Assembly (NCBI GenBank): GCA_032158295.1
Contig: CM063258.1
Location: 3,430,001-3,494,000, forward strand
Origin: Pycnopodia helianthoides
Taxonomy: Eukaryota > Echinodermata > Asteroidea > Forcipulatida > Asteriidae
Reading direction: 5' to 3'
Length of the DNA stretch: 64,000 nucleotides
The notes under the pieces are model-generated. The model did no database searches and was not told the origin of the DNA. It worked only from the letters and a program-made list of their open reading frames with translations. Below, in pieces: positions 4,001 to 62,445 of the stretch. Position numbers and translations under genes: made by a program. Within the stretch, counting starts at the first letter, position 1; each line of letters begins with the position of its first letter.

Positions 4001-7000
4001 CACAACTCTATGGCGTTTGCCAACCAGCAGCGTCTGTACGCATGCGTGAATGTAATTAGCATATTTCATGGGAAGGGTCTATTAAGGCAACGCACGCTCA
4101 GTTAAAAATAACAATAATACGCATTTCATCTATGTTGCTTTATCACGCCTGGAGGGCGCCTCAAAGCACTCATCATTTTGTCCACAAGGTATGCGGAGCT
4201 ATCTTTGAAATATAAGACCCATTTATTTACATAGCACTATGTAATGGTTTACAAAGTGCAGTGGCGCAATCTGCAGCCAACCATAGCAGAAACACTGGAG
4301 TGAACCCCTTCTCTTAATGACAAGTGTACTGGGTTCTTTAATGTGCATTACAGAACACACCGGACCGGACCACTGGCTTTACGTCACATCTGAGAAGGAC
4401 GAAGCAATAATGGTTAAGTGTCTTGCTTAAGGAGACAAGTGTCACAGAACGGGACTCGAACCCACGCTCTGCTGATCGAAAACACAAGAGCTTGAGTCCA
4501 GTGCGCTTGACCGCTCGGACGTGACACGCCACAGTTAGACACAAACCACATCTTTATATAATTTGACTCCCAAAATGGCAGACCATCGGGGCAGACTTTA
4601 GCCATTTGAGAGGTCAGGGGTCGATTTCACAAAGCACTAAGATTCATCGTAAGATGAGTTATCAGTATTACCATAGTGATTTGTATTGTGACATCACTCT
4701 TTGCTAAACAACTGCGATGGATTTGCAGTTACAATCAGTCTGAACTCTTTGTGAAATCGAGCCCAGTGCAAGTAGTCAATAGTTGGGCGGTTCCCCGGTA
4801 TGGTGACCAGCACTTAACTAACTCTATAAATGTATCAGAGAGGTGAGTATCCAGATTGATGCTCTCGACTTGTTATGTTGACATCTGTTATTGATTCTAA
4901 CAAATTTCAACACTTTGTCATTAAATTTTTTTTCAGAAGCCAGATTGCTGATACCTGTGTCAATGTAATGCGAGTCACAATGGAATTGCCTGTAACATTT
5001 TTGAACATGGAAGTGAAAAGTTTCAATTTCATAGAGCGCTTAATAGTCTACTAGAACATCAGCATCATAGCGCTAAGAAACGTAGTATTAAGCGCGGTAT
5101 GAATATCATTATTATATTATTATTAAGCACAAAAGTAGCAGAGACAAAAACATTATGCTTACCAGATTAAGGTTACCAGCCAAAATACCATGTAAGATGT
5201 ACACTTTTAAACTGGTATACTGCACATTTTTTATGAGCAAAAAACTGGTAAGTATTACTTTCTGCTTAAGCAGCTCTATGAAATTGCGCCCTGGCACTAG
5301 AAGAAAACAACAACAACAACGACTCTACCTTGTACTGCTTTGTAAGCTTCACGGCAGCATCGTGGTTTGTGCCGTTGCGCGACGGACCGAAATCCGGATC
5401 CTGCTGCAGCTTGGCGAGGAGCGCCACCGGCTGCAGCGTCAGCAAACCCAGCAACCCGTCGCTGCTGTACAGCTGATCGCTGGGCAGCCGCTTGAAGACC
5501 GCCCCGCAACACTGGCTGAGGAGCCGGTGGTCGAGGAACGTCTTGAAGTCGGTGATGTTGTAGGTCCCGTTGAAGGGCGTTGGGGTGCTCTCAGGGTGGT
5601 ATCCATACAGCAAGTTGAAGAGCTACGGAGAATTTTCGTAAATGTTTCTTCAAAAAGTTGAATTATTATTCTAATAATAATAATAATATTCGGTTTTTAT
5701 ATAGCGCTTTATACACCATGTCTCAAAGCGCTTCCAACATTAGGGCTACGATACAAATCCATATCAAAATTTTCTCATTTTTTGAATATTTTTTTTCTGG
5801 GAAGTTGTCAATCACAAGGTCGTAATTAAAAAAACGCAAGCTACTCAAGGTGACGGATAAAAAGTGGGAAAAGGGTGTAACAGAAAAGGATGTTTATTTT
5901 CTTTTTGTAACAACATTCCATTGTTCACCAAAACACTTTGTTTGTGTTTTTTTTCTTTGTCGATTCTTGTCATTTTTACATGAGGGAGAATTAGAAAAGA
6001 AAATCATTTTCTAACGAAAGAATGGAGTAAGAAAAATCTAAAAGTAGAGAGATGACCTTTTTTTGAAGGTAGTTAACAATCACAAGGTAGTAAAAAAAAA
6101 AAAATCTTTTTGTTATCGCACAATACTCCACAGCTCACCAAAACATTTTGTTTGTGTTGTTTCTCTTTGACGATTCTTGTAGTTTTACATGTGGGCAGAC
6201 TTAGAAAAGAAAAATATCCGTCAAGCAGTAACAAATGACCAGCTGGGTTACCAGCTAAAATATGGCAGCAGTATTCACATAACAGGACGATTTTTTAGGT
6301 GTGAACAACAACAAATTGAGTAGAGAAGGATTGGAAAACTGCAACCGGACGTCCGATTTTACCTCGGTGACGTTGAGCTTTTTGTCCAGAATTTGATGAG
6401 CGTCTGATCTCGGTATACTGAGGTTTCTGACAAAGTAGGATTCCAGATCGCTCGCATTCTTCAGAATGTCCCCAAACTGAAGTCTGCAACAACAAAAAAT
6501 AGCAATAGAATAAACAAAAATGAAGTTGGCAAATTGAAATACGGAAAGCAAAAGTTGGGAACATCTTGTCTTTACACATGGCAGTTTTTCAGGCAGAAGT
6601 TTTTCTCGTACAATAAAATATAACATTGTACTCAGGCATGTTGGATGATACATACAAAAATACACATTGAATAGAGTGGTAAAAATATAAGTACATTCTA
6701 AAAGTATCCAATTTATATGTAAATCTGTGATCAAAAAGTACGTTTTACAAGTTTTTTTCTTACCAATTCTGTAATGTTCCTTTAATTTATTTCCATTTGA
6801 CTGCTTCTGTTTCACTTGTATACCTGTTTTTTTGTGTGTTGTCATGTCATTTAGCCTTCGAGAAAGACTCTGCTAGGGTCGAAACGTGAGGCCATTAAAA
6901 AATTAACCTATTTCTTGCATTATACCAAGGCCCTTTTGGTTGCTAAGCAGTTTGCAATGTTCAGCTAATTCTATTTTCTACGGTTAACTCTTTCATGCGC

Positions 7001-37000: not shown

Positions 37001-40000
37001 CGGGTGCTCCTTACCAAGGAAGTTTTGATGGTAATGTGTGTCTTGAGTAATTACGGTTACCAAAAGTATCCACTGCCCCTAATACAATGTAAGCGCAAAG
37101 ACCAAATAATAACTTCTTTAATCCTGATGCAAAATTAACATTAAATCGTTGCAGTACATATATACCTGCTGCTAAATATAGGATTTGAACTGCCTCTAGC
37201 CACCGTTCTAGCTCAGTGGACTAGTAGTAAGACATCTGCTCTAGCGTGGCAAAGATCTTGGGTTTGAATTCCACCCGAGTGATATCAGGGTTCTGCCCGT
37301 AGTGGTTGGTGCCGGAAAACCCGCCCGGCACTCAGGATTCCCCAACCACCACTGGCAGAATTTTCTCCATTTCCGACCACCACACATTTTCCAAATTTTA
37401 AAATTACACTTGCAATTTCCTTTCAAAGGTTTTCAAAGATATGTAAAATTGGGTATTTACCAGTAAAAATGGTATCCGAAACCATTCATTTTGAGTACTT
37501 CGTTGATATGAGTATATTTTTATGTAATTGATCCATCTTGCAATGGTTTCCAGGGAAACGTTTTTCCACCACTAAAGAAATCCTGGGCAGAACCCTGCTG
37601 ATATGCCTATGGATATTTTTTTTTCACAGGACTCGGGAAAGTACTGAGTACACAGTGCTTAATACACATCGTTGTAACGGCAAAAAACAAATAAAATTAT
37701 ATATCCCCGATGCAAAATTAACATCTATTAAACCATATTCTGGTAAGCAAAATCATTTTGTGCTTAACTACTTTTGTGATTATTGCAACTCTATGAAATT
37801 GAGCCCTGGTCTTCATAAACCCAACTCCCCAAAGTCCTTTCTACCTTTGGCTAGAAACCTTCCTAGAAATCCTTCAATACCCTCCACTCCAAGGTAACTC
37901 AACCCCAAAATGTTTGGACCTGGTTAAGACTGGAATGCCTGTGCCCGGTGATAAAAGCAATTTTGTTACTTGGGCCCTCCACAATCAGTCCACTTCCTGA
38001 ATAGGAGTTTGAGGGATCTATGGTTAGGGTTAGGCCAACTTGCCAACGGGTGACCCCGAACCTATATAGGACTCTTCCTCTGCGAACACACAAAAGCACT
38101 CGCGTCATGGTTTTTCTAATAAACTATGTTTAAAGTTTGCAGAATTCTTTACGAGAGAGCAGCATTATTTCACAAAAATGACGGATTTGTGAGGAATGTA
38201 TGAATTTGTGAGGAATGTATGTAAAACCCACCGCAAAATTCTTTTTGCTGCCATGGAATGTGAATCCGGTGAAATTAGTGGCTTCTTGCCGGTACGATTT
38301 GAGTTTCACAAAACTCATTGCAGGATTGGTTAGTGAACAACGCGGCTGCGTTAATAAGTTGAGCGTTTGACGCACCTGCAAGCCAAAATGCAATTTGCCC
38401 GTAAAGATGGCGTCTACTGGGAGCTATCTATACAACTTCCTACCGACATGTTTGGACTTACATAACATTGAAATACCAGGCCCACTGATATACAAATTGT
38501 TATTTTGGCCTACAGCCCTCAGTCCTTCTGAATCCTTTGTTTTCGCAAAGAGGATGTGGACGGATTTTGGAAAGATACGGTTAGAGTAGAGGCAGTTTGG
38601 CTGGAGTGAGGCCCAATTCCTCCAATTTCCTCTATTTCCCTACAAAAACTCCACACCAAAATGTTGGGACTTGGAAAATATTGGAAAGCCTGACCCTCTG
38701 ATCTAAAGCAATGATTAATGGGTCTAACGACCCCAGTCCTTCTAAATAATCACTTTGGCGATAGACCGTTATTGAATATGACGTCACCATTCAAAAACCT
38801 GCCCTACAACATGGCGTCTGTGAGCGTGTGCGTGTACGTGAGTGCGTACTGTGCCAGAGAAGTCAAACCGGGAACGCTGCGCGCTTCATCGATGTACGCG
38901 ATTAGACGCGCATACAGTTTGCCCTACAAGATGGCGACTTTCATAGCAACAAAGGGGTTCTTCAATACGGTCTATTGGATATAGAAGAAATTGAAACTGT
39001 AAGGGTCCGCGACTAAAGACATGTAGCGGTGAACCCCACAAAAACAATGACGGCTGATGAACAAATGTCATGCCTTGTTATTATTTTGCAAGTCCTTAAC
39101 TTGTTTTGCAAAAAGACAAATTTGAGGGGTCATTTCTTGTAGGGATTGCTTATTTATTTGAAAGAAATTGAAAGGCTCTTACCCAGAGTTTGGATGGTCA
39201 GGGAATCCGAAAGGGTCCCTCTTGTACGACGGACAGAACGTCTGTAGAACGGGAATGATACCAGAGGATGGTAGCGGCATCGCTGTGAAGTAGGCTTGGG
39301 GGGGGGGAAAAAGAATTGAAGATCAGATTGATATCGGAAAGTAATACGTAACCGGTGTGGTCTTGACGCTTCGAACAGTATACTCTGCTCGTCTTTAGGA
39401 GAAAGGAGGGATGGATTTCACATTTAAGGAGAAGGTTTACTTTCTCAATTGAGGAGGAGGCTTACTTTCTCAATTGAAGAGGGTTACTTTCTCAATTGAG
39501 GAGGAGGCTTACTTTCTCAATTGAGGAGGAGGGTTACTTTCTCAATTGAGGAGGAGGGTTACTTTCTCAATTGAGGAGGAGGGTAACTTTCTCAATTGAG
39601 GAGGAGGGTTACTTTCTCAATTGAGGAGGAGGCTTACTTTCTCAATTGAGGAGGCTTACTTTCTCAATTGAGGAGGGTTACTTTCTCAATTGAGGAGGAG
39701 GGTTACTTTCTCAATTGAGGAGGAGGGTTACTTTCTCAATTGAGGAGGAGGCTTACTTTCTCAATAGAGGAGGAGGGTTACTTTCTCAATTGAGGAGGAG
39801 GGTTACTTTCTCAATAGAGGAGGGTTACTTTCTCAATTGAGGAGGAGGGTTACTTTCTCAATTGAGGAGGAGGGTTACTTTCTCAATTGAGGAGGGTGGG
39901 GGATTTGGTGTCAAGGGTCAAGATTACTTACTTTGACCCACAGGCTGTGATGGCTGCTTCTTTCGAATGAAGAGGAGTATAACAAACAGTACCAATGGGA

Positions 40001-41268: not shown

Positions 41269-42018
41269 GATGTTGATCCGCGTCACACGTCGCTGCTCTC
41301 TATCTGGGTATCCTAAAACTACTCAGCATAACTTTTAACGTTCTCCGAGACCGTGCGTTACGTTATAATCCACATGACACATAGAGCACTCTTCACTGAT
41401 GACAACCTGCCGGACAAAAAAAATAGACTAACACTGATTGCTGGCACTGCTGAAGGTGGATTAGGCCTAATTGTACTAAGGCCAAATAATATAAAAACAT
41501 GTTTAGCGTCCACGCCCGCTTCCTTTAAGAGGCCGCCTCCTTTTTGTTTTCCTTTTTTTTTTGTAATAGGATCAGTTTTAACGATCTCTGACAATAACAA
41601 ACAAATTCTAAAATAAAACATCGTAAAAAAAAAATGGTTTAATGAGATAGAAACAAAATCACAAATAAATGGTTTGATCCTAAATTATTCCCCCTAAATT
41701 ATGTCGATGGTAAAAATACAGTGAAAGTTTGTTGTTGTTTTCTCAGCAAGAAGAACTTAGATTTAGAAGTAGACAAGTGCTGTATTCAGCTGAAACTTTC
41801 ACAAGTGACTTTTACTGTATCTTTCTTTATAATTTTCCCTCTTAAATCAGCATTACGTTTAACAAAAAAACAAAGGACGACCCTTGAATAATTATTGATT
41901 GAATTAAAGACAGGATTTCTCTTTATGACATGAATACAACAACTACAAAATCAAAATACAATTCGTACTTAGCATGGGGTTTGTGACAATAGTGCTGGGT
42001 CCTGATAATAACTATGTC

Positions 42019-46916: not shown

Positions 46917-47290
46917 TTAGTCATTTCCTTCTTGGATGTTCAAACCATGGGGTTGAATAGTCTTTATGCGCCTTATCCACAATTTCTCCCTACTCAGACG
47001 GACAGTCTCTCTGGAGTTACCTAGTGCCTCAATGCCCTGTAAATTCATGTCAAAAATGGAGTGGTTAGGAAGATTGAAGTGGTGTCCTACAGGTGTATCC
47101 AGCTTGTGGGTGTTGACTGTTGATCTGTGGCCGTAGAAACGCCTCTTCATTGTAGTTCTTGTTTCACCTATGTATTGAACACCACAAACTCTGCAAGATA
47201 TTAGATAGATTAGATTAGTTGTGGTGCAGGTGACATGACCCCTTGTCTTATGGGTGGTACCACCAGTATGGCTGGTAAAGGAGTCAGATT
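46917..47290 (-). pseudogene. Penelope-like element fragment, GIY-YIG endonuclease C-terminus
   Basis: The reading frame gives GHVTCTTTNLIYLISCRVCG, then VQYIGETRTTMKRRFYGHRS, DTPVGHHFNLPNHS and REKLWIRRIKTIQPHGLN. These are hallmarks of the GIY-YIG endonuclease at the C-terminus of Penelope-like retroelements (YLI-C-C--QYIGET, HR, HF-L--H, RE--WI---KT--P-GLN). No reverse transcriptase is left. The upstream side is cut by a TTAA MITE at 47420. Confidence 0.85.
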
Positions 47291-47419
47291 CCTCTACAAA
47301 CGATGCATTTTGATGTGTTGGAACACCTAAAAGTACCCTGTGGCAAAGGGGGATTAACATCATCATTAATGGGGGGTGGGGACTTCTGCCCGGACGATGA
47401 GATCCCCGAGACTGGGTGG

Positions 47420-47782
47420 AACAAAACAGTTGCTGGCAGTGTAAGCACTTTATGTAATCCACCATATACATAAACTAACAAACCTGTAGAAGTTTGAGAT
47501 CGATCGGCCTTCTGGGTCACGAGAAAATAGTGAAAAACCGATTACACATTTGCATGAAATCATAAAGCTTCAACAAATGAATAAAACGCTCACTGAGCGA
47601 TAAACTCCAATCGGAAAATTAGTTTATTCATTTCTCATCAAATATGGCATTTCAGACAGAAATATTTCAGGGGATGTTTTCTACTATCATCATCATTAGA
47701 CTGTGTAAGTTTTATGTAAATCTGTGATCAAAAAGTATATTTTACAAGTTTTTTTCTTACCAATTCTGTAATGTTCCTTTAA
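47420..47782 (-). mobile_element. MITE-A copy 9, left end lost
   Basis: It starts at ACAAAACAGTTGCTGG, lacking about 28 bases including the terminal repeat, and abuts the Penelope-like fragment. The right end is intact. Confidence 0.8.
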
Positions 47783-49579: not shown

Positions 49580-50047
49580 TTATTTTGAAAAGCCAGCATG
49601 GGCGGGGCTGGTCGTGACCCAGTGAGTCTGCATTACAGACCGCAGTATGTCCACGTCCGAACTCAGCCCTCGGACGTCACGCCGGAGGGTGTTGAAGTGG
49701 GCGTGGACGGACTCCCCACCGTGCTCCCCGTGGAAACCCAAGCCGAAGCGCCACCGCCGCAGCCACGGAACGACGTGCTCCTCGAGGAGATGCATCTTCG
49801 GCGTGACAGTCTCACTCGGAAAAGAGGAGCGGAAGAATGCCAGGTAGTTCTTGACGTCTCGGCTCAACGCGTCTATGGCTTGGTCGCTGAGGACGATTGC
49901 GACATTGTACTTCCGGTGACAAGTGCCAAACAGGTTGAACAGTTTGGCATACTTCGTGGCGATTACTACAGCTTCCCCCTCGAGTGACGGACAAAGTTCT
50001 TGAGTTTTACTGACCACCGCATCGGTGAGACGCTTGACATTTTCTTC
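49580..50047 (-). CDS. RAG1-like exon G: HxxxxH, catalytic glutamate and stop
   Basis: The acceptor TTACTGCAG is followed by GAA GAA AAT. It encodes PKMHLLEEHVVPWLRRW and then FGLGFHGEHGGESVHAHFN. HLLEEH matches the zinc histidines H937/H942 of RAG1, and the glutamate in GGES lies 21 residues on, against 20 in RAG1 (E962). It ends THWVTTSPAHAGFSK and TAA. Confidence 0.88.
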   Translation of the reverse strand, partial: EENVKRLTDAVVSKTQELCPSLEGEAVVIATKYAKLFNLFGTCHRKYNVAIVLSDQAIDALSRDVKNYLAFFRSSFPSETVTPKMHLLEEHVVPWLRRWRFGLGFHGEHGGESVHAHFNTLRRDVRGLSSDVDILRSVMQTHWVTTSPAHAGFSK

Positions 50048-53000
50048 CTGCAGTAAAAGACATAGTTTTCATACAATTACATGTACTTTTTGTCAAGTTT
50101 GAAGTTTTATTAAGAATGAATGCTTTCGTTTTGACACGGCATTACCTTGCAGCACTTGTGGACGTGGTTGCCGACAAAACCAAAGGCTTGTCGCTTCACC
50201 CGGAACTCCTGGAGGACGGTGTCGAGTAAACCAGCTAAGGGACCCTGACCTGGTTTGAGTGCTGCCTTCTCACGAAGGGCCTTTGCTTCCGCCAACTGAA
50301 ATAAATAAGTCACGATGGTAAATTAGTCATCGGAGAAACCCTTTGCCAGAAATGACAAACACGGCGCTTCTAGTGAGGTTTGCGGAAACACCATAAAACT
50401 CTCTCTTCGTGAATTGTGGTGGTTCTTAGCAAAACCTCTTTGACAATAGACCATAGAGCTATATAATAAGTATAGACCAATCCATACACGCAAGTGTAGC
50501 CCAACCGCACCACCAATGCTGGAAACACCGACAGCACAAGATCTTCTTTTTTTAATCAACTCATCATTTCGATCAGTGCGCTGCGATCGTCTTCAGGGGA
50601 ATGCTGGACTCTGTTGCTGTATGCTGCTTAAAGGAACATTACAGAATTGGTTTTGCAAACAAAACAGTTGCTGGCAGTGTAAGCACTTTATGTAATCCAT
50701 CATATACATAAACTGACAAACCTGTAGAAGTTTGAGATCGATCGGCCATCCCAGTCACAAGAAAATAATGAAAAACCGATTACACATTTGCATGAAATCA
50801 TATAGATTCAACAAATGAATAAAACGCTCACTGAGCGATAAACTCCAATCGGAAAATTAGTTTATTCATTTCTCATCAAATATGGCGTTTCAGACAGAAA
50901 TATTTCAAGGGATGTTTTCTACTATCATCATAATTAGACCGTGTAAGTTTTATGTAAATCTGTGATCAAAAAGTATATTTTACAAGTTTATTTCTTACCA
51001 ATTCTTTAATGTTCCTTTAAGTGCTTCTGCGCACCATGGAACTCAGCCTATCCCTTAGCAAAACCTCTCGGCAATAGATCAATCCATACGCGCAAGTGTA
51101 GCCCACCGCACCACCTATGTTGGAAACGCAGACAGCACAAGATGTTGTACACAAAGACATGTAAGAACTGTTGTTAACATTTCTAACTTTTTATGTGAAT
51201 TGGGTGTCTTGCTTAATTATTTACACAATTTCCCAGGACAAAACATGGCATAACGATGTAGAACATTGACCATAATGATTTGCAACTAAACAACTTAAAG
51301 GGAAGGTATACGTTTGGTAATCACTCTTGAATTAATGGCAATCAAACCTTACTTGGTTAGAAGTACAGCAGCTTTCGATAGTACATGTATAAAGCATTTT
51401 GAGAATCATTTAACTTTGGGAGTAATGTGGTTGTGGAAAAATATATCAGTTTTTATCAGAAAAAAATTGAATCTGAGAAGCGTCTCCGTCAGAAACGTTT
51501 CTCAGATTGTGTATTCCAATTGCGGATTATTCTTCCGTCTAGCATTCTCCTAAAGATACTCAAAGCATACTGATCGAAACATCAAGTTGGTGGTTCAGAA
51601 CCACCACAAACACAAAGAGAGAGTTCAATGTACAGGATGTCTTCGCAAACCTCACCAGATTGTATTGTATTCCCATAATGCAAAGTTTCAAATCCTACAA
51701 CGTTGACTTCCGCCTACGAGTATATTCAGGTGTAACGGATTCTGCCACTGCGAGTATACTCGTAGAGAATGAAAGGGCTTTTTGTACTGTTAATTGAATA
51801 CGCAACAAATACGCTTCTGGCAGTGGAGCGAACACATCCTTAGAATTTGTATGTGCAAATTTTTTTTGAATTTTTATAGTACCTATTTGGTATGCGCGCA
51901 TGCGCACTGCACTTGGCAAATGGGAACGCCCTAAGAATCTATGACTGGCAGTCAACGTGTTAAACACGCACTTCTTGTACGTTGGTGTTTGAAGCTTTGC
52001 ATAGTGTGGAAAAATAGGAAGTCTAATCTATAATTAGTAAACTTGCGGGTACAAGCAATGTGGTAAAAATCTCTGTTGGCTCTGAAAAGAGCCGGTGTGG
52101 TGCCCTTCTTTTATGCACCTCTTTTATTTCAATGCAAGGAATGCCTTACCAGATATTCTTTTTGCTCTCTCAATGCATTCGTTTCAGCGATGTAATTCTC
52201 GATGTCGGCACTTTCCTCCTCCTCCTCTGACGTTATGATGGTGTCCATGAGCTCCTCTTCTTTGAGCTTGAACTCCTCATCCGAGGCCTCTGCCTGCAGC
52301 TCCAACTGCCTAGCCTGCTTCAACACCGCGACGACCCTCTTGAATGTGGAGCCAAGAGCTGGGTTGTCCGCCTTGGATCCGTGTTCTTCTTCTTGTGCGG
52401 CCAGCACAGCCGCCACTTCCATGTCGAGATCGTGACATGCTCTCTCAAAGCTGTTGAAGTGCTTGAGGTACAACCCGAGACTGATGTGAAGTCCGGGCGG
52501 GCAGACCTTTTAGAAACAGCATGATTATCAAGGGGAAAGAACAAAAATTGATTTGTTTCAAAGAATCCCGTTCATGGCACTGGTGTCCTTGACAAAGACG
52601 CTTAACTATAAGTGCTTCTCTTCACCCAGGAGAAAATTGTGACAGCAGAGACGGTTCTTGGGATTGATTTAGCTTCCGGTGCACTACATATTTGGCAGCA
52701 CAGGCTGTATATACTCACCAGGGAGCTGAGATGGTTTTTAAGGAATGAAATAATGGCCCAGTGACCAGGGGTAACAATGTTGGACATAAGCATCACTGAG
52801 CGACAGATTTGAGCGCTATATAAGAAGCCACTATTGTTGGTATTAAGCATTGTGCATTGATGCACAGGGCTGATTTGATCTGGGCCCAATTTCATAGAGC
52901 TGCTTAAGCATTAAAAGAAGCTAAGCACAGCAAAAATATGCTAACCAGAATAAGAATACTAGCTAAAATACCATGTCACATGTACAATCTGTGACTGGTA

Positions 53001-56000
53001 TCCTGCTTATTTTTGCTTAGCAGAAATATTTCAAGGAATATTTTCTGCTTAAGCAGCTCTCTGAAATTGGGCCCAGGAAACAGGTGTCTCAACCTTTTTT
53101 GCTAAGCATGGTAAGTGGGGCTTATCGGATCAGTCTGTTACAACTGTCGCGCGAAAAAAAAAAATATATATCACCTGTGTTAGTGGAATCCTGAACATTG
53201 GTGCACTGATCACATTGTTGAAGAGTTTGGCATTGGAGAGTTTACTGCCATCGGCCATGAATCTGGCGAGGTCGTCGTTCAGGGTGTTCAGAGTTCTCTG
53301 CCTGGCTGGTGGCCTCTCCTCCCGCGGCAAGATCATGTCATCTTTGGAGATCTCACAGTAGAGACAGCTGTGTCGTCCTGTGTAAAAAAAAAAGAAAAAA
53401 AAGAGGGGGGGTTTTTCACTCATCAGTGGCCTGGCAGAAGAATGAAAGGGTGATCTCGAGCGCCACTTTTGGACGTGCTTACCCGAACCCTTGAAAATAC
53501 TCCCAATATCCCAGGTATTTCTTTTGACCCACCCGACCATAATTTCGAAAAAAGATTAAAATTTTTAAACATTTATTATTCTGAATGGCCCCTAAATCTC
53601 AAACCATTTGACAGACACAGCTCTTCGTGAAAACGGTGACGATTTGTCCACAGTTTGCGTATCATTTTTCAAAAAGACTGAAACTTGTCGCCTACCTGAC
53701 GCCCCCGAGAGCCCGTACACTCGGCAGAGATACTCGTAATCCCCGAACATAAAGAGTCTGACTTTATGAGTCTTCAAAGTGCAGGACTGCAGATCGACGA
53801 CTTGCTGACGGAAGCGGAGCAGACCAGTCTTGAGGTTGTCGTATCGATCCCCCGCTGCAAAAGCACAGGCGACGACGGTGTGCAGAAGGCAGTTGGGGCA
53901 GTCGACGTTGGCGATTTGGAACATCTGCTTGAAGGTACCCCCGCCCTTGTCGCCTCCGATTTTAACCCAGACCTCGTCGGCGGGAATGTTGCCCTCGTGC
54001 CACGTGAGCTGTCCAGACCTGGAGTTAAAGAACGCTAAAAAAATGAGTACATTGTCCCGTTGAGAATTTCAACACTGTCTAAAACACAAGATAGGGCCAC
54101 ATATACAAACAAAATTGTATGGTTTTTGAGGCACTGCATGGTGAGGAATCAATGTAAATGTGCACAGCCATAATTATGGGTACACTTTTTGTTACAAAGA
54201 CACCAAATGAACAACACATTATTATTTAGTAACTCTTTGCAGATCTTGTATTCGACACTGTCTAAAACACAAGATAAGGCCACATATACAAACAAAATTG
54301 TATGGTTTTTGAGGCGTTGCATGGTGAGGAATCAATGTAAATGTGCACAGCCATAATTATGGGTACACTTTTTGTTTTAAAGACACCAAATGAACAACAC
54401 ATTATTATTTAGTAACTCTTTGCAGATCTTGTATTCGACACTGTCTAAAACACAAGATAAGGCCACATATACAAACAAAATTGTATGGGTTTTGAGGCAT
54501 TGCATGGTGAGGAATCAATGTAAATGTGCACAGCCATAATCATGGGTACACTTTTTGTTACAAAGACACCAAATGAACAACACATAAATATTGAGTAACT
54601 CTTTGCAGATCTTGTATTCGACAAACTCAAGTACTTTCTACTCTTCTGTCACACAGCGCTGGTTAATTGATGACAAACAACATTGAAATAACTGTTACAT
54701 CACTGGTTTTAAAAGTGTTGTTTGTATGTAACATGGACACAAACAAAATGTGTGCCCATGATTGTGGCTTTGCACATATTCGGTTTGCGGTAACACATGT
54801 GTATATCTACTTTGCTGTGTAAATTTGTTTGTTCTTTAGAGAACTTGTCTGGCTGTCTATTCTACTACCGCAGAGTAGATTTACAGACGTGAAGTTAATA
54901 ACGAGAAGTCCCCTCGAGCCACTACGCGAAAGTTGTAGTCCCGGCCGATTTTCTAACTTCCGCAGTAGTAGAATAAATAGCAAAACAAGTTCTCTAAAGA
55001 ACAAAAAAAACAAAAAACAGCAAAGTAGATATACACACATGGTGTTACCGCAAACCGAATATAACATCAAAACAAAATTGTTGAGTGTCCTTTTTTTGGG
55101 AGGGGGGGGGGGTAGGTACGGGAGGGCAGGGTTTTAAAAAAATAAAAAATTAATCAAGTTTTGTTGACATGGCAAAATATGAAATAAAGAATAAAGAAAT
55201 CAACTCCTAGATGACATTTCCTGTAAACATTTTCAAAAAACTAAAATGATGTGTATAGCCTATGTAAATGTTTGAAGAATTGTTCTTGTTTTTGCCAACT
55301 TTATTATCCTATTTCTTCAAACATCTTTTACTACCAAGCTATGTGTGCGGCGCAGAAGGGAGCCAAATTTGACTGAAAAGATGATTGAAAGACCGTTCTT
55401 TATGATGAAAAAAAAAGAAGAAAAAAAAGGGGGTTGGGGGGTTCTGTAGGGAAGGGCGGGGATGATCAACAATCTTTTTGTTTTAATGTGGCCTAAAAAG
55501 AGGTTTTCTTACTTATGGTATTCCTCAAACTGTTGCGTGACCTTAGCAACGAGGGACTTCACACCTACACAGGCAGCCGGCTTGATGGTGACTCCTCCGT
55601 TGACTTCGTCCGGGAAGGAGAAGGGAAGGTTCTCGGCGACGATGTTACTCGCCACGATGTCCTTCTGCTGTCGGCGCATCGCGTTCTCCCCCTCCGTGAG
55701 TATGTTGTAACTCTTCAGCCATCGTTTGATCTCCCTGAGGCGTTTCCAGGAGATTCCGAAGTGGGCCTTCGCCGCCAGGAGCTGCATGTTGGGCAGCCTG
55801 ATGGAGTCCAACTTCAGCTCCTTCAGCGTCTCCTGCAGGTCGTCTCTGATGCTGCTCAGCTTCAGCTCGTCGAGGTGCTGCCGCCTGGAGGTACCCATGC
55901 AGAGGAGGTTACGCGTCTTGTTTAAAATCTCAGAGCGTCGTCGCAGAGTTTTATGTGCGGCAACCTCACTGCTTTTTCGAGGAGTGGGTACGCATACCAT

Positions 56001-59000
56001 AGTCAGAGGCTTTGTCAGAGGGGAGGCGGGGGTGGGGGGGGGGGAGGGGGAAGAAAAAATGAAATAAATCTTTCAACTAGTCCTACTAGTTCCAGTCCCG
56101 GTCGTGGTACTTGTGTCCTTAAGCAAGACCAACATTGCTTCGTCCATCGGATGGGATGTAAAGCCATTTAGGTCCAATATGTGGTGTATTAACCCTAACA
56201 GACTAGACCCTTTGGTAAACATACTGCCCAAACCCTATATCCTCTCCTTATTTTAAGTATACATATTAGCCCAAATCCTTCTAAATCCTTTTGAGACAGA
56301 AGTTGGGAAGTCAAAAAAGCCCAAAACCTTCAGAATCCTATTTTGGCTAAGCTGCGTAAGACCTAAAACCTTCTAAATCCTCCCATGTAAAAACAGCCCG
56401 ATAGACCAAGTCCTGCTAAATCCTACCCTAACAAAAACTCATTGTAGCCCAAACCCTTCTAAATTCTCCTGTGTTGCAGATCCCTAAAAGCCCAAATCCT
56501 TCTAAATCCTGCACTTTTGCAATGAGGATATTGAAGGACTTGGGCCCTTTAGGGTTAATGCACGTAAAAGAACCCAGTTTCACTTATCGCTAGGAGAATG
56601 GGTTTTGTCCAGCTGTGTCTTGCACTGCCTGCTGAATGCATCACAGCACCTTGTAAACCTGTACAAGGTGAGCTACATAAATTGGTCTCATAATTTCAAA
56701 ATTTCAAAAAACTGTCTTAAAATATCTGTCTGTTCAAGCGCCTTGAATACCTATTACTGGTAGATACATGCACTATATAAGACTAGGTAGGGTATACTTT
56801 TGGTAATTGTCAAAGACCAGTAGCCTCACTTGGTGTATCCCAACGTATGCATAAAACAACGAACCTGTGAAAATTTGGGCTCAAATGGTCCACGAAGTTG
56901 CAAGAAAATAATGAAAGAAAAAACACCCATGTTGCGTAGAACTGTGTGCTTTCAAATGCCTGAGAAAGGCTTCATGCCTGATGCCTTTCTCAGACTCAAA
57001 TATTTTAGCGAGAAATAACCTCTTTCTCACAAACTACATTACTTTAGAGGGAGTCGTTTCTCACAATGTTTTATACTATCAGCAGCTCTCAGGTGCTCCT
57101 TACCAAGTAAGTTTTTATGGTATTGTATTTTTTGAGTAAGTACCAAAAGGATCCACTGCCTTTAAACCTAAAATAAACTTTCAGGTCTTTTTTACTTTCA
57201 TTTTTTAAAGCTGTTTTGACCCTTTTTTGCCATTTATTGTTAATTTGTCTTTGGACGCCATGCAGTACAGCAGCGGTTGGGAGAACACATACCTCCTTTA
57301 CAATGTTGATTTTATACTTTTTTTCAAAGCTAATAGTAATAACCTTTTCAAAACTTGTAGGGATAGTTTGGCCCCCCCCAAAATAATAAATACATTTTTC
57401 ATGTTTTTACACTGCGAAACCGCATATAAAAAGTGTTTTATATAACTGGGGATTCAGAGTCCGTGCCTCATACTACCTTAAGGGTCATAGGTCATGTTTT
57501 TACACTGCGAAACCGCAATGTTCGTTGTTCACTACCCTATATAAAAAGTGTTTTATAAAACTGGGGATTCAGAGTCTGTGCCTCATACTGCCTTAAGGGT
57601 CATAGGTCATGTTTTTACACTGCGAAAAAGCAATGTTCGTTGTTCACTACCCTATATAAAAAGTGTTTTATAAAACTGGGGATTCAGAGTCCGTGCCTCA
57701 TACTACCTTAAGGGTCATAGGTCATGTTTTTACACTGTGAAAATTTGAACTCAATTGGTCGTCGAAGTTGCGAGATAATAATGGAAGAAAAAACACCCTT
57801 GTCACACGAAGTTGTGTGCTTTCAGATGCTTGATTTCGAGACCTCACGCGTGAGGTCAAGGTCACAAAATCAATTCAAATATTTTACTGAGAAATTACTT
57901 CTTTCTCAAAAACTATGTTACTTCAGAGGGAGCCGTTTCTCACAATGTTTTATACTATCAACAGCTCTCCATTGCTCGTTGACTGAGTAAGTTTTTATGC
58001 TAACAATTATTTTGAGTAATTACCAATAGTGTCCAGTGCTTTTAATGTCCCTATGTTTTCTACGGAAGTCCACAATTAACTCCTTGGTTTTGTCTACATT
58101 TATATTAGATTATTTTCCTCGCACCATTTGACAACAGAAGTAATAATTGTGCACGATGAGCACTTTCATTGTCATGTTGAATAAATGAGAGTAGTGTCAT
58201 CTGCCAACATAACGACAAGCGAATTGGGGGTTGGTTGCTTCAAAAATGTTCGTTGGAACTGAGGTGAGTGCCACTGGCCTGTAATCATGTAAACGTGAAA
58301 TGGACTTCTTCTTAGGAACAAGTAATTAAGGAAGATGTGTTTTTCAATCTATTGGTTGCAGACATGTAGGCCATCAGAGGGTTTTAAATGTAAAGTATCT
58401 TATGTAAAAGTATCTTTACTGAATTGAATTTGAAAAATCAGACCTATATAGTTTAGCTTACCAAGCCACCGGTCTTGTACCGAGTGCTAAACCCGTCTGA
58501 AGATTGTGCCAGCTTGGATTTAAGGATATGCGAGCCGAGTTCCTCCATCTGAGGGGTCAACGGAGTGGTCAACGGTCGCTGCATCATCTCCACGACTTCA
58601 CTATTTCGTTGCTGGTGTGGTTTGACGATGAAAAACAGTAAATTGGGATTAGTACCACTGGGACCGCTGACTTTCGGATCACAGACATGAGACGAGATAT
58701 CGCCCAGGGGGACACCGACTTTGCATGCCTTACACTTCATGACCGTGCTCAGAAATAACGAGGCGAAATATCCCCGCGGGGCCACTACGCGCTTGAAGTC
58801 CACGGGTCCTTGACAGGTCGGGCAAGGGAGAACGGACTTTCCGGAAGATTCGTAGCACACCGTCAAGCACTCGCAACAGAACAGGTGCATGCAGCATGTC
58901 TCTAAGGCCTTGTTCAGCGCCCCGTTGCAAATTTTACACAGTATGGGAGAAGTGTAGGACAGGGGCTCGAAGTTGAGCATCTTCTCCCTCGAGACCGTGG

Positions 59001-59410
59001 GGGACGTCTGGGGTAGACCGTTAAAGAACTCCGTGGGGGTTATCCGAGGTCGGCCACTCCCCGGATGTTTCTTCTTTTTTTTACGCCCGGCCCTCAGATG
59101 TTGGGCGGAATACGTGCACACAGGGCAGATGCCGGTTCTCTCATGGGGCGCCCAGGTCGGGGCCGTTTTCTCTCGCAGGGATATAAAGGGAAGTATAACA
59201 TGTGTGGCACATGTGCGGCGGGTGAGTAGTGTCTGCGTCGTCACAGGAGACGTCAACTTGAAATGTGTCGGCGATTTTCTCGGTGTAGTTGGAGCAGAGC
59301 TTCGCCACTTTTCCCTTCTTCGAGTGGGCTGACGATATGCAGCGCTCCCCGCAGAGTCTGCATAACCGCTGAAGAATCGCTCTGTGCTTTTCCATGTTGA
59401 ATCTGTCGGA
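49580..59410 (-). CDS. RAG1-like DDE recombinase/transposase (7 exons, frameshift in first)
   Basis: About 976 residues if one extra base is ignored. In order: a RAG1-type N-terminal zinc region (CRLCG; FQVDVSCDDADTTHP; CHTCY; CPVC, to about residue 95); a lysine-rich stretch; a RING finger (CKIC to CPTC, about 153-196) with a trailing CKAC-HVC finger; a helical linker; then a DDE core. Core residues that align with RAG1 by spacing: D about 500 (KIGGDKGGG), D about 570 (FGDYE), CLYC 19 residues later, GLH about 657, HxxxxH about 907-912, E about 933 (GGES), and a C-terminal HWVTTSP like RAG1 HWLYTS. Known: these residues bind metal and cut DNA at terminal repeats in RAG1, Transib and Chapaev families. 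Inference: a RAG1-related element of N-RAG-TP/Chapaev type, or a host gene derived from one. The frameshift may mean pseudogene or sequence error. Confidence 0.85.
50146..50295 (-). CDS. RAG1-like exon F
   Basis: The acceptor TTATTTCAG is followed by TTG GCG GAA. It encodes 50 residues ending VKRQAFGFVGNHVHKCCK. The donor is TGCAAG/GTAATG, phase 0. Confidence 0.82.
50425..51143. repeat. Direct duplication bracketing MITE-A copy 10
   Basis: CTTAGCAAAACCTCTTTGAC to GACAGCACAAGATC (50425-50543) recurs as CTTAGCAAAACCTCTCGGCA to GACAGCACAAGATG (51054-51143). The first has about 27 extra bases (CCATAGAGCTATATAATAAG). Confidence 0.72.
50628..51020 (-). mobile_element. MITE-A copy 10, in an intron of the RAG1-like gene
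   Basis: Full length; lies between exons E and F. It is bracketed by two copies of a roughly 100-base direct duplication (50425-50543 and 51054-51143). Confidence 0.85.
51297..51550 (+). mobile_element. MITE-D partial copy in RAG1-like intron
   Basis: TTAAAGGGAAGGTATACGTT and AATGGCAATCAAACCTTACT match the left half of 34088-34507; it stops after AATTGCGGATTATTCTTCC. Confidence 0.68.
51560..52149. other. RAG1-like intron remainder
   Basis: No exon seen. Repeated CGAGTATA words (51716-51765) and a GCGCGCATGCGCACTGCAC stretch at 51894, which resembles an NRF1 site but has no promoter context. Confidence 0.45.
52150..52506 (-). CDS. RAG1-like exon E: conserved GLH block and coiled coil
   Basis: The acceptor TCTAAAAG is followed by GTC TGC CCG, encoding VCPPGLHISLGLYLKHF, which matches RAG1 DALHCDIG-FYKIF in position. 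The rest is acidic and likely coiled coil (EEFKLKEEELMDTI, SEEEEESADIE). The donor is TATCTG/GTAAGG. Phase 0, 119 codons. Confidence 0.85.
52881..53075. mobile_element. MITE-H copy (GGGCCCAATTTC ends), in RAG1-like intron
   Basis: Left TGGGCCCAATTTCATAGAGC and right GCTCTCTGAAATTGGGCCCA; about 195 bp. Between exons D and E. Confidence 0.8.
53175..53377 (-). CDS. RAG1-like exon D: CxxC zinc pair
   Basis: The acceptor TTACACAG is followed by GA CGA CAC AGC TGT, giving GRHSCLYCEIS. The CLYC pair is 19 residues after the second aspartate, the same spacing as D708 to C727 in RAG1. It continues RTLNTLNDDLARFMADG and ends IPLTQ. The donor is CACAG/GTGATA, phase 0. Confidence 0.87.
53696..54018 (-). 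CDS. RAG1-like exon C: catalytic core with first and second aspartate
   Basis: The acceptor AACTCCAG supplies the single base needed after exon B. It encodes LTWHEGNIPADEVWVKIGGD, then KGGGTFK, and later LFMFGDYEYLCRVYGLSGAS. The aspartates in GGD and FGD match RAG1 D600 and D708 in context. The donor is TCAG/GTAGGC, leaving 1 base. Confidence 0.87.
54066..54615 (+). repeat. Three tandem copies of a roughly 182-base unit
   Basis: Repeated ACACTGTCTAAAACACAAGA, GCATGGTGAGGAATCAATGT, ACACCAAATGAACAACACAT and GCAGATCTTGTATTCGAC. Includes the left end of MITE-I. Confidence 0.88.
54160..54775. mobile_element. MITE-I copy with its left part amplified in tandem
   Basis: Three left ends (GTGCACAGCCATAATTATGG or the CATGG variant) occur at about 54160, 54343 and 54525. 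A single right end, CCCATGATTGTGGCTTTGCA, closes it at 54775. The repeated unit is about 182 bases. Lies in the intron between exons B and C of the RAG1-like gene. Confidence 0.75.
54778..55060. mobile_element. MITE-J foldback (ATTCGGTTTGCGG ends)
   Basis: Left ATTCGGTTTGCGGTAACAC and right GTGTTACCGCAAACCGAAT. Inner inverted segments (TTCTTTAGAGAACTTGT with ACAAGTTCTCTAAAGAA; TATTCTACTAC with GTAGTAGAATA) show it can fold along about 100 bases per arm. Confidence 0.85.
55513..56009 (-). CDS. RAG1-like exon B: helical linker
   Basis: A long pyrimidine tract and ACAAAG precede CCT CTG ACT. The exon encodes VPTPRKSSEVAAHKTLRRR, a charged helical stretch (DELKLSSIRDDLQETLKEL), then ISWKRLREIKRWLKSYNI. 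By memory such a linker precedes the core in Chapaev-like proteins. The donor CATAA/GTAAGA leaves 2 bases. Confidence 0.83.
56090..56690 (+). mobile_element. tRNA-Leu-like SINE, second subfamily, split
   Basis: TAGTTCCAGTCCCGGTCGTG and TCCATCGGATGGGATGTAAA to the left of the 56187 element, then GCACGTAAAAGAACCCAGTT and TGCATCACAGCACCTTGTAA to the right. One SINE interrupted by one MITE. Confidence 0.6.
56187..56556. mobile_element. MITE with internal tandem words, inserted in a SINE
   Basis: Left TTAACCCTAACAGACTAGAC, right GGGCCCTTTAGGGTTAA. Inside, CCCAAATCCTTCTAAATCCT is repeated about eight times in diverged form. The SINE sequence breaks at its left edge and resumes at TGCACGTAAAAGAACCC. 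Confidence 0.7.
56786..57165 (+). mobile_element. MITE-C related copy
   Basis: It carries GGTAATTGTCAAAGACCAGT near the left end, a CTGAGAAAGGCTTCATGCCT hairpin region, and ends GGATCCACTGCCTTTAA. A diverged subfamily. Confidence 0.65.
57372..57734 (+). repeat. Three tandem copies of a roughly 121-base unit
   Basis: Repeated GTTTTTACACTGCGAAACCG, AAAGTGTTTTATAAAACTGG, CTTAAGGGTCATAGGTCATG. The last unit runs into MITE-C copy 4. Confidence 0.88.
57735..58045 (+). mobile_element. MITE-C copy 4, 5' end replaced by a tandem repeat
   Basis: It begins inside the element at GTGAAAATTTGAACTCAATT. The sequence to its left is the 121-base tandem repeat of 57372-57734. The right end GTGTCCAGTGCTTTTAA is intact. 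Confidence 0.75.
58462..59410 (-). CDS. RAG1-like exon A: N-terminal zinc region and RING finger
   Basis: An ATG at 59395 opens MEKHRAILQRLCRLCG; a possible acceptor (TTAATTAG) at 59411 would add SDRFN before it. The first frame runs through HPPHMCHTCYTSL and then stops near 59140. The frame with CPVCTYSAQHL, the RING finger and LETCCMHLFCCEC is offset by one base. The switch must fall near 59165-59185. Known: vertebrate RAG1 has the same order (CRICG, IHP-FCHNCW, CDIC, RING). The donor is GGCTTG/GTAAGC, phase 0. Confidence 0.85.
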
Positions 59411-59454: not shown

Positions 59455-59770
59455 GGAATAAAACCACAAGGGAAACTGACCGGGTAAAGGTTTGATAACT
59501 ATGGGTTGAACAAAGAAAACTTGACTAGAGCTGGACTTGAAAACCTGCAACCTCTGGATTAACGTGCCGGGACTCTACTATTACTGAGCTATCTAGCCCT
59601 ATGTTGGCGGTCTTCCTATTTTGTAAATCTTTGGGGGTGCCAGTAAGAAGCCATTCAACCTGTAACTGCCGTATAAGCCAGGGATCACAGGGATCACACA
59701 AGTTTACAATACAACCTGGGAAGCGGCAGGAGAGGGATCACCCTTGAAGGGGGTGCAACTTTTTATCTCA
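59455..59770 (-). mobile_element. tRNA-headed SINE, copy 3, just upstream of RAG1-like exon A
   Basis: Inverse orientation: AACTTGACTAGAGCTGGACT, TACTGAGCTATCTAGCCC, CTATGTTGGCGGTCTTCC. About 50 bases from the possible exon A acceptor. Confidence 0.6.
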
Positions 59771-60204
59771 AATATATCACATGATGAACGACACGGGAAA
59801 CCGACTCGCACCCGAACAAATGCAAACCCCATATTAGCTGCTAGTAGTGTTATACTTACCTAGGTAAGATTAATGTAAGTATGTATTTGGTCGTATCATG
59901 TGAGAAAAATGACCAATGGATTCGGAATCATTTCCATTTTTTTGTGTTCTGTTCATTGAGTGAAAAAACAATGCGGTGAGATTCGTGTGATTTTTCATCA
60001 CTAGTACCACCTCAAACTACCAGAAAGAAGCCAGCATGGCAAGCATGGCTCGGTAGTTGTATTTTGTACCTTAGTAAGTACCACTATAAAGTACCGCTAT
60101 AAACTCCAAGTTAAATTTTAGGCAGCGTTGATATTGGCGACGGTAATAATAAGCGATGTGTGTACACAAGTGGCTGACATACGCAAGTACGCAAGTAGCT
60201 GACA

Positions 60205-61612
60205 GAGGACTACGTCCTGCTTGTCAACCAAAACACTCCACATCCTGTTGGTAGCCTCAGAGGACTACACTCCTGCTTATCAACCAACACACTCCACATC
60301 ATGTTGGTAGCCTCAAAGGACTACACTCATCAACCAACACACTCCACATCCTGTTGATAGCCTCAGAGGACTACGCTCCTGCTTGTCAACCAACACACTC
60401 CACATCCTGTTGGTAGCCTCAGAGGACTACACTAACCAACCAACACACTCCACATCCTGTTGATAGCCTCAGAGGACTACGCTCCTGCTTGTCAACCAAC
60501 ACACTCTCCACATCCTGTTGATAGCCTCAGAGGACTACGCTCCTGCTTGTCAACCAACACACTCCACATCCTGTTGGTAGCCTCAGAGGACTACACTCCT
60601 GCTTATCAACCAAACACACTCCACATCATGTTGGTAGCCTCAAAGGACTACACTCATCAACCAACACACTCCACATCCTGTTGATAGCCTCAGAGGACTA
60701 CGCTCCTGCTTGTCAACCAACACACTCCACATCCTGTTGGTAGCCTCAGAGGACTACACTAATCAACCAACACACTCCACATCCTGTTGATAGCCTCAGA
60801 GGACTACGCTCCTGCTTGTCAACCAACACACTCCACATCCTGTTGGTAACCTCAGAGGACTACACTCCTGCTTATCAACCAACACACTCCACATCATGTT
60901 GGTAGCCTCAGAGGACTACACTCCTGCTCATCAACCAACACACTCCACATCCTGTTGGTAGCCTCAGAGGACTACACTCCTGCTTGTCAACCAACACACT
61001 CCACATCCTGTTCGTAGCCTCAGAGGACTACGCTCCTGCTTGTCAACCAACACACTCCACATCCTGTTGGTAGCCTCAGAGGACTAACTCCTGCTTATCA
61101 ACCAACACACTCCACATCCGTTGGTAGCCTCAGAGGAATACACTCCTGCTCATCAACCAACACACTCCACATCCTGTTGGTAACCTCAGAGGACTACGCT
61201 CCTGCTTGTTAACCTACACACTCCACATCCTGTTGGTAGCCTCAGAGGACTACATTCCTGCTTGTCAACCAACACACTCCACATCCTGTTGGTAGCCTCA
61301 GAGGACACTGCTCCTGCTTATCAATCAATGCACTCCACATCCTGTTGGTAGCCTCAGAGGACAACGCTCCTGCTTATCAACCAACGCACTCCACATCCTG
61401 TTGATAGCCTCAGAGGACTACGCTCCTGCTTGTCAACCAACACACTCCACATCCTGTTGGTAGCCTCAGAGGACTACACTAATCAACCAACACACTCCAC
61501 ATCCTGTTGATAGCCTCAGAGGACTCAGTCCTGCTTGTCAACCTACACACTCCACATCCTGTTGGTAGCCTCAGAGGACTACGCTCCTGCTTATAATCAA
61601 CCAACACACTCC
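60205..61612 (+). repeat. Minisatellite, unit about 55-58 bases, upstream of RAG1-like exon A
   Basis: Roughly 25 units of CCTCAGAGGACTACACTCCT with GCTTATCAACCAACACACTC and CACATCCTGTTGGTAG. Several units lack the TCCTGCTTG segment. An open frame across it (60460-60684) is repeat-derived. Confidence 0.93.
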
Positions 61613-61837
61613 ACCCGCATTTGAATCCCTGCCAAAGGTTTTTGTTTCCATCCAAAAAAAATTGAATATTCTTTTTCTTATTTAATCAAAAAGTTTACTC
61701 ACAATTCAAATGGATAGTTACTACTACATTAGTAGGCCTACTATTACTAATATAAATGACTTTTCCTTTTTTTAATTTGTAGCTCCCTAGAACTTGTTTT
61801 TAAAGTGAAGTAAAGTCTGAAATTGCAGTAAGGCAAA

Positions 61838-62445
61838 AGCTTCAGCTTTTGAAATCTGGATGATCCATGATCCACACTGCCAAACTTAGTGGTAAAATTC
61901 TGAATCCGGCAGCCACTTTGATCTCCCTTAGAAAGTGGCAGTTGGATACAGAAACCTTTAATTAAATTGTTGTATTTATTTTTTTAATAGCTTCAGCTTT
62001 TGAAATCTGGATGATCCACGATCTACACTGCCAAACTTAGTGGTAAAAATTCTGAATCCGGCAGCCACTTTTATCTCCCTTAGAAAGTGGCAGTTGGATA
62101 CAGAAACCTTTAATTAAATTGTTGTATTTATTTTTTAAATAGCTTCAGCTTTTGAAATCTGGATGATCCATGATCCACACTGCCAAACTTAGTGGTAAAA
62201 ATTCTGAATCCGGCAGCCACTTTTATCTCCCTTAGAAAGTGGCAGTTGGATACAGAAACCTTTAATTAAATTGTTGTATTTATTTTTTAAATAGCTTCAG
62301 CTTTTGAAATCTGGATGATCCATGATCCACACTGCCAAACTTAGTGGTAAAAATTCTGAATCCGGCAGCCACTTTTATCTCCCTTAGAAAGTGGCAGTTG
62401 GATACAGAAACCTTTAATTAAATTGTTGTATTTATTTTATAAACC
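61838..62445 (+). repeat. Four tandem copies of a 152-base unit
   Basis: Each unit starts AGCTTCAGCTTTTGAAATCT and ends AATTAAATTGTTGTATTTAT. Copies 2-4 are almost identical, so the expansion is recent. Confidence 0.92.

Follow-up and report, generated by a model that had tools for sequence, protein, structure and literature searches.

A gene on the minus strand of the starfish Pycnopodia helianthoides, in a 64,000-nt stretch of DNA (C16:3430001-3494000 of the 479-Mb assembly; hereafter the window, to which coordinates refer), is very probably an old, nearly intact Chapaev-type (DUF1280) cut-and-paste transposase gene with the full RAG1 layout. Seven exons (59395..49580) join through six introns into a protein of ~977 residues in which a RAG1-type N-terminus is followed by a RING, then by a further zinc motif, and finally by a DDE core. 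The gene structure, the domain order, and the conserved residues are visible in the window; the predicted folds of homologues resemble RAG1, and the same genome holds related transposons with CAC/GTG ends and 4-bp target duplications.

All six introns are of the GT-AG type, and the frame is kept at every exon junction. Exon 1 (58462..59395) encodes the RAG1-type N-terminal zinc region, which scores above the Pfam cut-off (PF12560), the RING, which scores below it, and a C..C...H..C zinc motif (RING and motif, 58681..58940, limits read from the sequence). Exon 2 (55513..56009) covers the region ahead of the DDE core, and the PF06918 match starts inside it; exon 3 (53696..54018) holds both catalytic Asp residues, with a PF06918 match of 2.1e-11 on the open frame 53592-54068. 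The CLYC zinc pair lies in exon 4 (53175..53377), the LH motif and the beginning of an acidic coiled segment in exon 5 (52150..52506), the end of this segment and a QAF..FVGNH motif in exon 6 (50146..50295), and the H(4)H zinc pair, the catalytic Glu, and the stop codon in exon 7 (49580..50047). No stop interrupts the 665-residue core, and the GC content is 0.56 in core exons versus 0.38 in introns. Two reading frames point to one frameshift in exon 1, at ~59180 to 59145 between the CHTCY and WAPH..C..C motifs, and three residues (9 bp, in frame) are missing from the conserved QA(Y/F)xGKSFVGNH motif of exon 6.

Dispersed repeats lie in the first intron (56796-57165, 57735-58046) and in later introns (50627-51020, 51295-51535, 52882-53060) and match other parts of the window at about 73-95% in a self-comparison. 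Another (59502..59806), ~100 bp upstream of the start codon, resembles window stretches beside two tRNA matches; no transposon end was found at it. Since the exons are spread across 9.8 kb among repeats, they could stem from different elements that adjoin by accident, so that the spliced model would be an artefact. This is extremely improbable given six GT-AG introns with matching phases, homologues from the crinoid Antedon and the hemichordate Ptychodera that align over 100% of the query, and an independent transposon family of the same genome whose introns occupy similar positions. The six intron positions of the window gene fall within a few residues of the alignment borders of two copies of that family, L011 and L012. 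Read from such borders, in an alignment that leaves residues 690-774 open, L011 has about three further introns, near residues 406, 560, and 886, which are absent in the window and apparently also in another own-genome copy, L016.

Every DDE and zinc residue that the original prediction had named as a RAG1 counterpart is present, in order, across separate exons joined in phase. The Asp of KIGGD (53951..53949) and the Asp of FGDYE (53741..53739) are followed by CLYC (53366..53355), whose first Cys lies 19 residues past the latter; this gap, also foreseen, is found in 14/14 proteins measured. The LH histidine (52488..52486) is the counterpart of RAG1 H795 by position. HLLEEH (49792..49775) precedes the Glu of GGES (49714..49712), which lies 21 residues past the last His, as it does in 12/14 proteins, the 12 in which the pattern matched the His motif. 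The two Asp residues are 70 apart in the window protein, the gap among the proteins measured being 70 in 13/14 and 75 in one, and the window protein has 248 residues between LH and H(4)H; in vertebrate RAG1 these gaps are 108 and 142. Two sponge rows (P0009, P0010), outside the 14 proteins, have no CxxC stretch in the alignment. At columns that are near-invariant outside starfish, the window protein departs at 3/73, the starfish Patiria at 2/74, the starfish Acanthaster at 1/73, and a second Acanthaster copy at 0/46. The window protein contains the whole motif set (DDE with C(2)C, LH, and H(4)H) by which Chapaev (DUF1280) transposases are defined in the available text of PMC4079192.

The CRLCG, HP..CHTCY, and W.PH..C..C motifs and the RING follow one another in RAG1 order, as had been predicted. 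A single-sequence search aligned this part colinearly with RAG1 residues 102-379 (6.1e-10), and an N-terminal profile matched RAG1 at 1.2e-29 versus 2.3e-12 for the next solved RING protein. The window protein thus has a RAG1-type N-terminal zinc region and a RING that together are nearer to RAG1 than to any other RING protein whose structure has been solved, and no other RING family gave the better match that would have spoken against the prediction.

The core belongs to Pfam DUF1280 (PF06918), which matches the joined protein at 8e-16 and 11/11 family members, and is one of three Pfam families matched by the joined protein. The predicted folds of two homologues (Patiria and Antedon) match RAG1 best, ahead of Transib, and also match the ProtoRAG structure 6b40; the structure alignment between homologue and RAG1 has about 15% identity. 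DUF1280 is equated with Chapaev and put in one clade with RAG1 in the available text of PMC3985635, and by this clade and the DUF1280 assignment the core stays inside the RAG1/Transib/CMC group, where the prediction had placed it. A RAG1-like N-terminus, RING, and fold would also be expected if the gene belonged to RAG1L proper (RAG family), like that of ProtoRAG. However, the RAG1-core family was found neither for the joined protein nor for 11 relatives, for which 25 families were listed, DUF1280 standing in its place; the relatives make 4-bp, not 5-bp, duplications; and the Cx2Cx3GHx4C tail, a motif taken from the available part of PMC7204232, is not seen by eye in the window protein. A RAG1L gene is therefore very improbable.

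Several observations weigh against a Chapaev-type transposase with the RAG1 layout. By fold, the RING of the Patiria model is a near tie between RAG1 (9.9e-4) and LNX2 (1.1e-3); in the Antedon model, whose N-terminal zinc region is of low confidence, LNX2 comes first and the RAG1 RING is not among the matches listed. Core profiles compared with PDB chains found neither RAG1 nor Transib, even at E 10, so the evidence for the core link consists of predicted folds, the order of motifs, and published work; the training set of AlphaFold2 included RAG1 structures. At the window copy, BLASTN-short comparison of the flanks gave no convincing ends, a CAC/GTG scan up to 3.5 kb away with 4-bp duplications gave one weak pair (5 bp identical, 14/20), and a scan up to 4.5 kb under a stricter rule gave none. 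The CAC...GTG inverted ends with a 3-4 bp duplication that mark an intact element were thus not found in scans for 4-bp duplications, and the window copy is probably without recognisable ends and immobile. Taken together, the data support the predicted RAG1-layout protein with a Chapaev-type (DUF1280) core, although the linkage of a RAG1 N-terminal half to such a core was already in print, the core link escapes sequence profiles, and the window copy is damaged and lacks ends.

Protein searches returned 10 and then 31 matches, each among about 8000 scored candidates. The relatives come from Patiria and Acanthaster (64% in the core), Holothuria, Antedon, sea urchins, and Ptychodera, the last already in the first search, and further from amphioxus, a nemertean, Hydra, and sponges; Ephydatia accounts for about a dozen rows, some perhaps one gene from two sources. 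A scan of viral contigs found no relative. The nearest kin of the window protein are from starfish: it groups with three starfish rows in a 22-row tree (support 100/99), and with P0032 and L016 in a 34-row tree that includes own-genome copies (99/95), where the Patiria/Acanthaster rows (100/98) adjoin this group and all six unite at 100/100. P0032 (348 aa, 1170-bp contig) is 87% identical over 318 columns and, by eye, continues from the first exon into the second over the splice site and then enters the reverse complement of the next exon, a sign of either rearrangement of the copy or a chimeric transcript.

The exon with both Asp residues matches 54 stretches in its own genome, with the window copy at 100% identity and the next at 66%; family counts from this search are lower bounds. 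Between 8.3 and 11.5 Mb, contig C15 holds 29/54 stretches and may be a repeat-rich or rarely recombining region. Ends were examined at 17 further loci. At eight of these, an inverted terminal pair that starts with CAC is accompanied by a perfect 4-bp duplication. The ends are CACCGCTG at L011 (duplication TGAC), L012 (TTGA), L013 (CCCG), and L028 (CATT), CACGGCCG at L021 (AGGG) and L022 (AACT), and CACGTACG at L015 (AGTA) and L018 (CCAC). For L011-L013, L021, and L022 the same ends emerge from the borders where near-identical copies stop matching. The scan can yield chance pairs, as at L013, which gave two extra pairs beside the true ends. At L016, L017, L019, L020, and L023-L027 no ends with a 4-bp duplication were found, and L014, outside this count, has a displaced end by eye. 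Over the longest shared stretches L011-L014 are 98.7-99.5% and L021/L022 99.9% identical, and therefore moved recently. In L011, L012, and L014 the encoded layout runs from the N-terminal zinc region through to the final exon, and L013 has an internal deletion. The 4-bp duplications of these relatives differ from the 5-bp duplications of RAG1/RAG1L and Transib. A frameshift in L011 (6668..6973), absent from its sisters L012 and L014, falls in the same CHxCY-WxPH linker as that of the window gene (59141..59180).

The ends of the L011 family have two parts: CACCGCTG, 34 bp, and CGCATGCG at the 5' end, and CACCGCTG, 24 bp, and CGCATGCG at the 3' end. Genome-wide, the CACCGCTG-spacer-CGCATGCG pattern has 10 matches versus 0 in a backwards control: four with 24 bp, all in L011-family copies, five with 34 bp, three of them from the L011 family and two from a diverged family (contigs C80 and C86), and one with 37 bp on C22. 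Falling in the L011 family and the C80/C86 family, the matches represent two families rather than ten independent cases. L011 and L028, the C80 copy, share 14/34 and 12/24 spacer bases and agree in the 5' length, while the 3' inner motif of L028 is imperfect. The observed score of the inner motif shared between ends was reached in 0/300 shuffles for L011 and 5/300 for L015 (spacers 44/23), and, near chance, in 20/300 for L021 and 22/300 for L018. Unequal ends are thus evident for one family and partly for its relative L028, not for the rest. GCGCATGCGC resembles an NRF1 promoter site, which offers a plain rival reading. Inside the window CGCATGCG occurs five times with up to one mismatch, no commoner than chance. 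The 34/24-bp spacers between a CAC-octamer and an inner element are reminiscent of the 12/23 recombination signal sequences, and ProtoRAG ends, as described in the available part of PMC8289069, have 27/31-bp spacers separating a CAC element from an inner 9-mer. No paper containing both 'Chapaev' and 'nonamer' was found in the open-licence literature. It is an unlikely idea that unequal two-part signals, in which a fixed spacer separates a terminal CAC element from an inner element and the spacers differ by one DNA turn, were already used by Chapaev transposases with RAG1-type N-termini.

On a rival reading, the window copy is, or was until recently, a starfish host gene domesticated from a Chapaev transposon and maintained by selection for a host function. 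Convincing transposon ends are missing, no other scored own-genome copy is closer than 66% in the exon searched, the starfish relatives are annotated proteins, and P0032 reads through the first splice junction. The introns hold dispersed repeats of differing divergence, yet the core is stop-free; with neutral change simulated at 0.01, 0.03, 0.05, and 0.08 per site, it stayed so in 53, 17, 4.7, and 1.3% of 300 runs. The last value favours selection; lighter neutral change, as in the first two, would also be compatible with a stop-free core. A frameshift, a 9-bp deletion in a conserved motif, two diverged copies in Acanthaster, and many transposon relatives in the same genome argue against a host gene, which we regard as possible but doubtful. 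The evidence points more towards prolonged selection, on either a low-copy transposon or a host gene, and then recent damage or an error in the assembly.

As a Chapaev-type transposase, the window protein shares with vertebrate RAG1 the domain order, the DDE residues, the C2/H2 zinc pair, the LH histidine, and the predicted fold of homologues, but differs in the Asp-Asp and LH-to-H spacings given above. Chapaev proteins of lancelet and sea anemone with a RAG1-like N-terminal zinc (Chapa) domain, a RING, and a core distantly related to Transib were published in 2015 (Kapitonov and Koonin, PMC4411706), so the window gene adds to a known kind. By the description in the available text, the order of N-terminal zinc domain, RING, and core is the same; here, an intron-bearing starfish copy without ends is accompanied by young relatives with ends, and that text mentions no starfish. 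ProtoRAG/RAG1L is alike in fold and in the CAC and bipartite unequal ends of the relatives (PMC8289069, as available), but the duplication length, the missing CCGHC tail, and the core family set the window protein and its relatives apart. Transib (HzTransib) is described in the available part of PMC7204232 as being without the RAG1 N-terminal region that the window protein has; Transib also makes a 5-bp duplication, against 4 bp in the relatives. N-RAG-TP of Aplysia is, in the available description (PMC8355894), a mobile element made entirely of RAG1-N-terminal-like sequence, a part that here is fused to a DDE core.

Elsewhere in the window, no RAG2-like Kelch was found in 12 frames scanned with Pfam, eight of them from the transposase gene. 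An open frame at 46917..47474 (minus strand) is GIY-YIG-like (21.8 versus a Pfam cut-off of 22.6 bits) and probably encodes a retroelement endonuclease. Two pieces on the minus strand, 40930..41322 and 5269..5622, are possible ABCA-type transporter exons by eye, with no Pfam match in either. Tandem arrays lie at 60203..61614 (56 bp x 25.7), 61838..62443 (152 bp x 4.0), and 39416..39895 (25 bp x 19.7).

The enzyme would pair two transposon ends, use its DDE active site to cut beside CAC in the manner of RAG1 and Transib, and reinsert the element with a 4-bp stagger; its RING may work as a ubiquitin ligase or a dimerisation part. An enduring question is how an N-terminal zinc/RING half and a transposase core came together in RAG1. 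Recent starfish transposons with both halves and their ends would permit a laboratory test of the role of the N-terminal half in transposition and of whether unequal ends matter outside RAG. If unequal signals did serve such Chapaev elements, the logic of the 12/23 rule would predate the RAG/Transib branch and would have come with the RAG1 layout rather than been invented there. With the overall build known since 2015, the main contribution of the find is a well-suited test case for the origin of RAG1.
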